The position numbers and the translations under genes are program-made. DNA of 64,000 nucleotides from Ianthella basta (lineage: Eukaryota > Porifera > Demospongiae > Verongiida > Ianthellidae): assembly GCA_964019415.1 (NCBI GenBank), contig OZ025886.1, forward strand, positions 3,357,701 to 3,421,700. Reading direction: 5' to 3'. Each line of letters starts with the position of its first letter. Position 1 is the stretch's first letter. Of this stretch, positions 40,173-63,244 are shown piece after piece. The notes under the pieces are model-generated. The model was not told the origin of the DNA and made no database searches. It worked only from the letters and a program-made list of their open reading frames with translations.

Positions 40173-43100
40173 TCATGTCACATTCTTCATGAATAACAGT
40201 GGATGCTCCAACTTTAGGTCAGCTGGAAGGCTCCTATTGTGCCTGTTGAGTGAGTTGCTGGAATAAAATAAGACAAGTTCTGATACTGAACTGTGGTGAT
40301 ATGGTTCAGCAAACCCATAGCCGCTGCTGGCAGCCTTGAAGATGCGAATATGCAAAAGACCTTTGGAGGATCTACATGAGTACACAGAAAAGGAAGGCTA
40401 AAATTCTGTAGGATCAAATGCACATATTTTTCCTGTGCTGTACACAATGGCATGGGGAGCTACACATGATGGAATCAAAGATTGGTACATGCAGTGGCTA
40501 ATGCCAAACAGATAGCGTGTGGGTGTTGGCTTATGTGGCTGATGACATCTGCAAAGTCCTATGCACCTCCGAGACAGTCGTAGAGACTGAGACAGTGAGA
40601 CTGCTGTACTGTAGTCACTACGTCTCCAAGTAAGTTGAATGCACAAGTGCACATACATGGTGGTCCCAAATCACCTGATGCACACGTTACAATCAATCCA
40701 AGAGATATGGCTGAGAGGGTTATTATGTTCATGTCCATATCCAGTGGGATATGTACCTGAACACTATTGTCAATTAACCAGTACCATGAATGGATTGTGG
40801 AAAACTGTAGTCAAAACGTAGAGTGATGGCATTTTCAGCTGCAGCTTCTGGCGTGTTGCAGCCAAGATGGTGGCCAACGTAGGCTGAAACACAATTGTAA
40901 GTGTATCTAACCATAATGGCAGTGTGACACAAGAGAGGAGGCTTTAGTTACCAGAATGGAAAAGTGTGGTATCTCTTCAACCAAGCGCCTTCATGTATGC
41001 AATCCCATCACCAAACAGTTTTGTGTCATAGCAAGAGTTAATGATTCAGGCTACTCCTAGCATTTTAACATTCAAAATGCCCACTGGGTTGACAGATGAT
41101 TGTTTCACATAGTCCTCTCAGATTGGGATTACACAAACTACATATGTAGCAATAATTTGGACACAATAGATACAGGGATTAAAAGTACAGCAATAAGGTT
41201 TTTGAATCCTGTGGACAGTCCTGCAGCTAGATCAATAGCTAGCAAAATATGTAAAATCTGTGTGTGACATGCCCTGTCACTATGGTTAGGATATGTCATA
41301 CCTCACAGCATTGCAACAAGAATGAAGGCTTCTAAATGCAGTGGTCTAGTAGACCATTACCATGATGCCATTCAGTACCTGGTCTAGGCAAATCAGATTG
41401 TGGGATGATCTAGACTGCCATGGAAGTTGTGCATCTTCAGTTACAATAAGAGCTTTAAGTTATGTCTGCCATTCCTTGTGTAGGGCACAACTAGCAATGC
41501 ATGCACAGCGTTAGTGCGGTGGACTGCGCACGTCAGTTTGGTTGTTACTGCTTTGTCTCGCCCTTTACCTTGTGGCAGAAAAGGCAATGAATCGGGTCAC
41601 AACAGCAGACAGGATACTCCATGAGGGCTACCATTACTACAGCAAGTCCACTCATTCTCACAGCACTACAAACGTACATACCATTATCACAGTCCTTCAC
41701 ACTGAAATGCCAAGGGCCATTAAGAGATGCTGCATTCCTGTCTGTAGTACACACTATGTACTGTGCAATATCACCATCAAAGGGCACTCACAAGATATCC
41801 AGCGTGTGTGTGTGCACCACTTCATCATCAAGGTCTGGGAGAGGGACACCATTACTTTCCATCAGTTTTGGGCGAATCACAAATGTTCCTGGAGGCATGC
41901 CTGACAGGGACTCAATTGAGTCCTTTCGACTACTGTGGAGGGTGGAAACACATTATAAATCAGACAGATATAACAGCTACACCTACAATTGATTGCAATG
42001 CAGCAATGAGGAACATATCAAGTCAAACACTGTGTACCCTTGTGCATTCTGTAGGAAACCTGAAAATGTATGGTACGTACACATGCAGTACTAATTGGGG
42101 CACTGTAAAACACCAATCTACGTATATCACATTATCTCATGCAATATGAGAACATCCCTCCACCTTATAATTCCTGGCATACCTCCAGTACTATGTGTCC
42201 TATTACTCCAATAAACCTTCCGACAGGATGTGTAGAATAAAATCACCCACAATGAGGCATGTACCTCACACTGCTGTAGTGGGTGGTAGGCTGTTTACAG
42301 TATCACACATTGCCTTGTAGACACAGCTAGGGTGTCACCACTCTATGAGCATGCCATGCTCATGCCAGCACACAGGCAGTTGGCCACTAACAGGAAGTCA
42401 GCCGTATCCACGGTTGCTCAGACTACCGGTTATACTCAGCCTCTGAGACAGCCATTGTCATACACATACAATAACACCCTTAGACTAGGTGTATGCCAAG
42501 GCGCAGAGGAGCCTTGCAACAAGTTATTACAGGTGCCAGGAATACGTCATCTACCTACGTTCAAGTGACATTGTCCAACTGATAAAATGTCAGCATTTTG
42601 TAGTGAATACTAACCCTAAGTGTAGGTGCTGATGGCCTACCTGGAGGCACTGGCCAGCCAGTTCTTTGAATTGAGGTGAGGGATCTGACTATGCAAGTCA
42701 ACACCGGGGCCCTGTGGGCAGGCCAACATTAGTGCATTCATACGCAATGAGTGACTGACGTACTATAACTTCAAACACCAACATCTCCAAGGCTTCTCAG
42801 TGCATGAGTAGCAACACAAACGCCACTGCAGCAGCCGTGCATCATAACTGCACAAACGCACCATGTACAATGAACTAGCATCGTCATCTTCCATGTACCT
42901 AAGGAATGGTGGCAGTAATTCATTAATCACAATGGCTACTACATATACCAAGTTCATGCTCTACAGTAAGGTATGTAGCTGATAAAGGCCTGAGTGGCTA
43001 GGAAGACTCATCTTAAGGAATTCCACGAAAACGCTAGCCAAATCACAAAAATGAATCAGACGTTTCGGCAACCTAGGGCTGCCTTCATCAGTGAATTATT

Positions 43101-62300: not shown

Positions 62301-63244
62301 ACACGCCTGCCAAGGAGGTCCATGGATGAGTCATTGATGGAGGAGGCCTTTGTGAGCTGGTCTTGTTTAGTAATTCCTGCTGTGGCCAGGTGTTGATAAT
62401 GTGCATGACACATTCATTCACCACAGTTCACGTACTAGCAGAGGTGTATGCAGGCATGTGGGTGGGTGTGCTTGTAAGTAGGTGATATGCTATTGCAAGT
62501 ATGGATTTGTATATTTATTGTGTCGGTTGCAGAATCAAGTGGATTCCAGTGGGCTCCCTCACCTGGACCAGGGAACCTGGCTGAGCACCTCCATTTCGTA
62601 AGTCTATAATATACATCTCTGGGCAATGCATGCGCTGTTGCACACTCCTTGGTACAGTGATGTGTAAAGGTGCAGGGTGGGGTGGTTCTGCACTGTGCAC
62701 TGATTTGTGTACGTATCCTGCATGCATGTGTGTGTGTGTGTGTGTGTGTGTGTGCATGTGTGCTTGTCATGTGTGCATGTCTGTGATTGTCAGAAATAAC
62801 TGTATGCTGTTCTAACTGCTGAAGGAGGCAGCAGTCTCGTTCCCTACTCTCCACAAAGCCAAATGGAACTTTCCTGGTCCGTCCTAAGGAGCCCCCTGAT
62901 TGGGTGGATAAGGAAAAGTGCATTATGCACACGCACACCATTGACGTGATGTGAGTGACACAAATGATGGCACACATCTGCCACATTGGACCAATTGCTG
63001 CTCATAATGGCATTTATCCTATAGCATTATGTGGTTGAGTGCCATGTGTGTGCACACTCACTGCAGGGATGCCAACAAGTTCAAACGGATTGCCATACTT
63101 CAAGGAGCGAATAAAGGCTATGGATTTGCTGAACCATTTGAATTCAAGACCTTGGTGGACTTGATATGCTATTATGCTCGTAGTTCGCTCAAGAAGCACA
63201 ACCCTGATTTGGAAACAACACTGGAACGGCCGGCATTCCTGTAA
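56399..63244 (+). CDS. PI3-kinase class IA regulatory subunit B (p55-like, SH3- and BH-less), 557 aa
   Basis: Paralogue of gene A, transcribed away from it. Exons: 56399-56405, 56868-56939, 57022-57090, 57169-57376, 57478-57573, 57650-57833, 57904-58032, 58128-58246, 60804-60980, 61090-61215, 62234-62351, 62533-62597, 62825-62950, 63067-63244; all phases agree and the total divides by three. The N-terminus is proline-rich with two class II SH3 ligand-type motifs, PPSLPPRR and PPPLPPRG. Then come [10 protein letters not shown], nSH2 ([33 protein letters not shown]), iSH2 coiled coil (about residues 240-390, including [16 protein letters not shown]), and cSH2 ([32 protein letters not shown]). 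Both FLVR arginines are intact. The start follows from the seven-base first coding exon ATGGCAG, which joins exactly to GTACTCC. No SH3 or RhoGAP domain precedes it. Confidence 0.93.
58371..58518. repeat. Tandem repeat, about three copies of a 49-bp unit
   Basis: GTGTACAGAACATGTCACC...CTACAGTCCTACTGTATA repeated from 58371, 58420 and 58469 with few changes; in the large intron of gene B. Confidence 0.9.
58519..60803. other. Rest of the large gene B intron
   Basis: It contains a hairpin-like repeat at about 59850-59965 (related to 12176-12318) and a degenerate TTAGGG/CTAGGG-rich stretch at 60585-60620. No coding exon was recognised between 58246 and 60804, and the exon phases across the gap agree. 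Confidence 0.5.
62728..62764. repeat. (TG)n microsatellite
   Basis: About 12 uninterrupted TG units, followed by a TG-rich imperfect tail, in a gene B intron. Confidence 0.9.

Follow-up and report, generated by a model that had tools for sequence, protein, structure and literature searches.

Does a sponge depend on a single p85-type regulator for its class IA phosphoinositide 3-kinase (PI3K), or on a family of them? This question is raised by a 64,000-nucleotide stretch of the Ianthella basta genome (contig OZ025886.1, here C19, positions 3357701-3421700; hereafter the window), in which the original prediction recognised two divergent genes, A and B, encoding short regulatory subunits with the nSH2-iSH2-cSH2 plan. 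Exon models were built on GT-AG splice sites and consistent intron phases, and the genome (209 Mb in 96 contigs) was scanned for related genes. We conclude, with a probability of roughly 0.8, that the locus belongs to a sponge p85-type family comprising a long gene, D, and the clustered short genes A, B, and C, that B and C form a mosaic shaped by gene conversion, and that the encoded proteins would regulate p110 catalytic subunits with differing inputs.

The locus is a cluster of three genes rather than the pair first described: A is divergent from B, and C, which starts at 63440, inside the window, lies in tandem behind B (Table 1). The models of A and B could be read without a stop for 420 and 557 codons, respectively. 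Gene C crosses the right edge of the window and ends at base 7293 of the adjoining stretch, with an open frame of 564 codons and the exon plan of gene B, including the 7-bp start exon. Gene B has three proline-rich exons. A few splice sites of the models score weakly, such as one B donor at -1.3 and one B acceptor at -1.8. When the spliced models were compared with Pfam, the SH2 and iSH2 domains exceeded the curated cut-offs (21 and 31.5 bits) both in gene A (65.6 and 34.2 bits) and in gene B (85.9 and 76 bits). The best solved-structure match by sequence was human p85alpha for each (E 1.3e-56 for A and 2.1e-58 for B). The two genes, on the minus and plus strands, respectively, are thus confirmed as class IA regulators with the nSH2-iSH2-cSH2 plan.

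The corresponding exon sizes predicted for A and B (96/96, 181/184, 120/129, 119/119, and 177/177 bp) were reproduced by the GT-AG models, and the common descent claimed for the two genes is shown by their matching intron phases. The earlier list was incomplete. Among the parts it lacked are the WYW exon of A, several exons of B (the 7-bp start exon, those rich in proline, and the W exon of cSH2), and gene C. The predicted spacing of about 1.6 kb between A and B corresponds to 1,588 bp from start codon to start codon. This region has an observed/expected CpG ratio of 0.57, compared with 0.34 window-wide, and it probably serves both A and B as a common control region.

By sequence, the p85-type family of the genome has at least four members, one long (D) and three short (A, B, and C). 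Among the 17 iSH2 matches obtained at E values up to 10, the top four ranks went to D, C, B, and A, and C accounted for a further match; none of the remaining 12 lay within 15 kb of an SH2 match, the nearest being 18.5 kb away on contig C6. The genome contained 70 SH2 matches, four of them on C19, one each in A, B, C, and D; the cSH2 halves fell short of this list. Both SH2 and iSH2 were over the Pfam cut-off in all four spliced models. Two SH2 stretches were found by Pfam in each of B, C, and D; in gene A, the nSH2 alone passed and the cSH2 was visible by alignment. Intron phases agree among the four genes wherever an intron is present in both genes compared. A protein search of the genome with A gave 36 matches at E values up to 1. 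Nine fell on A, a single one on D (E 5e-22), three on C (best 7e-8), and three on B (best 3e-6). The other 20 lay elsewhere, mostly among the genome's SH2 matches, and one of them, on C14, took a place between C and B with an E value of 1e-7.

Gene D lies on the same contig, about 3.1 Mb from the cluster, and encodes an SH3 domain (SH3_1, 36.5 bits against a cut-off of 22.9) and a proline-rich stretch, followed by the nSH2-iSH2-cSH2 core, whose iSH2 and cSH2 are separated by a long insert rich in proline. Between the first proline-rich stretch and the core, the start of a C1 domain can be recognised by eye, with no Pfam C1 match. The genome therefore retains a long, SH3-bearing p85-type gene, as judged from its sequence. 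In the SH3 scan (150 matches listed; 58 of 208 candidates not scored), the SH3 of gene D was the only one on C19 among the matches listed, and none of those listed lay near A, B, or C. RhoGAP gave 45 matches genome-wide, and the three on C19 all lie more than 0.8 Mb from both the cluster and gene D; very divergent SH3 or RhoGAP exons near A, B, or C could have escaped these scans. Within these limits, the prediction that A and B have no SH3 or RhoGAP exons upstream was upheld. The genome scan suggested for a p85-type gene with SH3 and RhoGAP (BH) domains delivered the SH3 in gene D. No RhoGAP match was found near D, but part of the D sequence reads N, leaving the second half of that expectation unread.

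Genes B and C are sisters (tree support 100/100), with a mosaic pattern of divergence. Their DNA identity is 96% in the first nSH2 exon (nSH2a), 88% in the second (nSH2b), and 91% in the third iSH2 exon (iSH2-3), compared with 43-78% in the other ten exons. The synonymous difference follows the same division, with 0.08, 0.21, and 0.29 in these three exons, 0.49-0.59 in iSH2-2 and iSH2-1, and 0.71-0.86 in the linker and cSH2 exons. In a permutation test covering eight of the 13 exons, each of the three low exons had a p value of 0.0002, and the other five had values of 0.16-0.99. For the two B-C introns within the stretch from nSH2 to iSH2-1, likeness was 53-56%, close to the upper end of what 30 random pairs gave (45% on average, 57% at most). 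Beside iSH2-3, the 60-bp ends of the introns were 49-56% alike. Since three exons are far more alike than the rest and the introns compared are near random, the likeness of nSH2 and iSH2-3 is best accounted for by gene conversion acting mainly within exons. The proline-rich N-termini, linkers, and cSH2 exons of B and C have diverged freely.

The SH2 binding arginines (positions R358 and R649) are Arg in all four proteins, and the equivalent of D560 is kept in all four. At the N564 position, D alone keeps Asn; A has Ser there, and B and C have Gln. Both p110 candidates in the genome carry the p85-binding domain PF02192, the mark of class IA p110. One of them, on contig C20 (from 2629258), reads ATHVNV at the place of the human p110alpha N345 motif, with Asn, the alpha-type C2 contact residue, at the match to N345 (read in this one p110 gene only). 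In the human p110alpha-p85 complex, the contacts of N345 with D560 and N564, linking iSH2 to the C2 domain of p110, are needed for full inhibition (PMC3157740). We infer that all four proteins would be partners of p110 and of phosphotyrosine, and that inhibition of p110 may be looser with the short forms. Each short protein would bind p110 through its iSH2 coiled coil, and the inhibition would be released once the SH2 domains bind phosphotyrosine. The diverged N-termini and cSH2 domains would then bring different inputs to the same p110 catalytic subunits.

Several points weigh against this reading of a p110-regulating family with a converted B/C pair. The Ser of A and the Gln of B and C at the N564 position may make a weaker inhibitory contact with p110 than p85alpha does. 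The start codons of A and B are 1,588 bp apart, so that their transcription start sites may or may not lie within the 1-kb limit by which bidirectional promoters are defined (PMC4773876). The likeness of B and C spills about 15-20 bp into the introns beside two of the like exons. A scan for the W exon of the gene A cSH2 yielded no candidate fitting the model; together with the long tree branch of A (1.51; that of D is 1.47), this means that A could be weakly functional. Finally, the best tree groups A with human p85alpha weakly (53/23) and leaves the short and long forms without supported clades.

The strongest competing explanation is that a compact sponge genome simply gained tandem duplicates within its own lineage, in which case the genes would neither share regulation nor divide functions, and their head-to-head order would be incidental. 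It has close to an even chance, though slightly less, and B and C are clearly tandem duplicates. However, the homogenisation of nSH2 and iSH2-3 confined to exons beside freely diverging parts, as well as the open frames in all copies, suggests a retained and partly shared function. A more specific proposal goes further in the other direction. The PI3K regulatory subunits of this sponge might form a gene-encoded combinatorial set, in which conversion between neighbouring genes keeps the nSH2, the phosphotyrosine gate, and the p110-facing part of the coiled coil uniform, the proline-rich N-termini and cSH2 domains diversify, and a shared divergent promoter region ensures co-expression. We offer this only tentatively and regard it as rather doubtful; if true, the sponge would achieve with a gene cluster what vertebrates achieve with the p85/p55/p50 isoforms of a single gene.

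The place of gene A was addressed by a tree of five sequences, A, B, C, D, and human p85alpha, the last being the sole outside sequence. The phylogeny called for in the original prediction gave C as the sister of B, and A and B as closest relatives were not supported. Gene A may instead be an old separate lineage that only secondarily became a neighbour of B and C. Its nSH2 is 60% identical to that of human p85alpha, compared with 48-50% to B, C, and D, and its weak grouping with the human sequence points the same way. Against such an origin, the cSH2 domains of A, B, and C have an HTHT motif in common, which is absent from D and human, the three genes are physically linked, and a clade of A, B, and C was not rejected by the approximately unbiased (AU) test (p 0.432); human with B/C was likewise not rejected (p 0.2). 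We consider an old, separate A unlikely, while granting it an appreciable chance. The nSH2 identity and the HTHT motif disagree on the place of A, and the five-sequence tree gives no supported order of A, D, B/C, and human.

The low synonymous divergence of the three B/C exons could also reflect selection on the nucleotide sequence, for instance on splicing or RNA signals, and the alignment does show the like stretches ending at or near exon borders. However, the synonymous difference in the other five gene pairs is 0.75-0.96 in nSH2a, 0.66-0.95 in nSH2b, and 0.62-0.86 in iSH2-3, which speaks against a general synonymous constraint on the three exons. The exact-match runs between B and C, 65 of 96 bp in nSH2a and 59 of 184 bp in nSH2b, fit recent copying with introns no longer matching. 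Nucleotide selection is accordingly improbable as a substitute for conversion. Least probable by far is the idea that some of the copies might be mere pseudogenes or artefacts of haplotypes: an exon expected in A is missing from its model, yet the frames of 420, 557, and 564 codons are open with GT-AG sites, all copies lie on one contig, and the near-random likeness of the introns compared indicates that B and C are not haplotypes.

Table 1. Positions of the PI3K regulatory genes and their exons within the window
Feature	Position	Strand	Basis or remark
Gene A, short class IA PI3K regulatory subunit, 420 aa, 9-exon model	40173..54810	-	cSH2 W exon not found; 5' end may extend further
Gene A cSH2 second half and stop	40173..40371	-	exon model
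Gene A cSH2 first half (GTFVIRP, HTHT motif)	41792..41929	-	exon model
Gene A linker exon, 135 bp	44805..44939	-	exon model
Gene A iSH2 exon 3, 177 bp (p85alpha D560 equivalent; Ser at N564 position)	45707..45883	-	exon model, alignment
Gene A iSH2 exon 2, 119 bp	47782..47900	-	exon model
Gene A iSH2 exon 1, 120 bp	49566..49685	-	exon model
Gene A nSH2 second half, 181 bp	52648..52828	-	exon model
Gene A nSH2 first half, 96 bp (FLVRD)	52946..53041	-	exon model
Gene A first modelled exon (MLMAAR...; WYWGPAS), start of nSH2	54713..54810	-	donor score 7.5 (strong), phase fits
Shared A-B upstream region, candidate shared promoter region	54811..56398	.	1,588 bp between start codons
Gene B, short-form subunit of 557 aa from 14 coding exons; N-terminus rich in proline	56399..63244	+	exon model
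Gene B 7-bp start exon (ATGGCAG; M-A-G)	56399..56405	+	same design in C
Gene B nSH2 first half, 96 bp; 96% identical to C	57478..57573	+	exon model
Gene B nSH2 second half, 184 bp; 88% identical to C	57650..57833	+	exon model
Gene B iSH2 exon 1, 129 bp	57904..58032	+	exon model
Gene B iSH2 exon 2, 119 bp	58128..58246	+	exon model
Gene B iSH2 exon 3, 177 bp; 91% identical to C (Gln at N564 position)	60804..60980	+	exon model
Gene B cSH2 W exon (TWLSTSI)	62533..62597	+	exon model
Gene B cSH2 first half (GTFLVRP)	62825..62950	+	exon model
Gene B cSH2 second half and stop	63067..63244	+	exon model
Gene C 7-bp start exon (M-S-G)	63440..63446	+	195 bp past the B stop
Gene C proline-rich exon (PPPPVPARRQS)	63643..63711	+	exon model

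Several other elements were observed in and around gene A. A RhoGAP-like exon considered inside the gene (51503-51919, minus strand) was ruled out, having no Pfam match at E values up to 0.1. An intron holds an inverted repeat (43011-44504) with two arms of about 570 bp that are 96.7% identical; the frame 43263-43799 (minus strand) gave a weak GIY-YIG match (18 bits; cut-off 22.6), the other arm is alike by eye, and we take the whole to resemble a Penelope-like element. The first intron and the sequence just upstream of the first modelled exon (53829-54198 and 54881-55043) contain one direct repeat and five short inverted repeat pairs of 25-52 bp, 85-96% complementary, which give the impression of miniature inverted-repeat transposable elements. 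In the large introns (48006-52215), there are four dispersed repeat pairs, 74-86% alike, one of them inverted. Just beyond the 3' end of A, and convergent with it, lies a TSP1/ADAMTS-type repeat (38536-39045, plus strand, 34.7 bits), and a 334-codon open frame with NudC domains (CS 67.2 bits, Nudc_N 45.3 bits) occupies 30328-31332. To the right of gene C, a single open frame of about 1,690 codons (positions 1448-6511 of stretch L010) shows a run of cadherin repeats by eye.

Elsewhere in the genome, 10 of the 70 SH2 matches lie at 2.80-3.42 Mb of contig C4, several with SH3 matches nearby, and are probably tandem Src-type kinases. The mitochondrial contig (C96) has nine in-frame TGA codons in cox1 and carries atp9 (Pfam PF00137), a gene that, to our knowledge, most other animals lack in their mitochondria. 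In demosponges, atp9 is among the standard 14 mitochondrial genes (PMC2800124). The TGA codons and atp9 point to a demosponge, although a homoscleromorph sponge could fit them too.

Genes A, B, and C resemble human p55gamma (PIK3R3) and the short PIK3R1 isoforms p55alpha and p50alpha in having nSH2-iSH2-cSH2 without SH3 or BH. The human p55/p50 forms carry a proline-rich segment, and the proline-rich N-terminal segment of B and C is a further likeness. In contrast to the human short forms, the sponge genes are separate and clustered, their cSH2 domains have the HTHT motif, and B and C have three proline-rich exons, a 7-bp start exon, and a mosaic divergence. The core of all four sponge genes is that of p85alpha and p85beta. 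Like these and the invertebrate long regulators with C1 or SH3 domains (PMC4617754), D carries an SH3 domain and what by eye resembles the beginning of a C1 domain; it differs in the long insert between iSH2 and cSH2, and, as part of it reads N, a BH domain may be present or absent. Among invertebrates, Drosophila p60 (Pi3K21B), a short form without SH3/BH (PMC4738311), and the nematode AAP-1, whose Hc-AAP-1 version has been called p50/p55-like (PMC4233088), are short class IA regulatory subunits like A, B, and C, but each is described as a single gene, compared with three short genes and a long SH3-bearing gene here. Close head-to-head genes are reported as common in the sponge Amphimedon (PMC4773876), and the A-B arrangement resembles them in its close divergent order and the CpG rise near the starts; it differs in that A and B are paralogues and in its start-to-start distance of 1,588 bp, which is known from start codons.

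The genes are thus ordinary in kind, and what is new is the four-gene set in a non-vertebrate, its arrangement, and its mosaic divergence. The arrangement had been put forward as undescribed. The short form itself is already known from fly and nematode, while no description of clustered sponge p85 genes was found among the titles and abstract beginnings listed from open-licence papers. PMC4617754 reports a single class IA regulatory protein for the animal lineages that it sampled outside jawed vertebrates and places the regulator duplications in Gnathostomata; for molluscs and annelids it notes that a lone regulator is accompanied by two catalytic subunits. With one long and three short regulators and two p110s, a demosponge departs from that single-regulator picture, and the multiplication of PI3K regulators arose outside vertebrates too. 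Ianthella basta offers a natural set in which evolution separates the conserved from the diversified parts of p85, and in which p110 choice and phosphotyrosine preference are directly testable.

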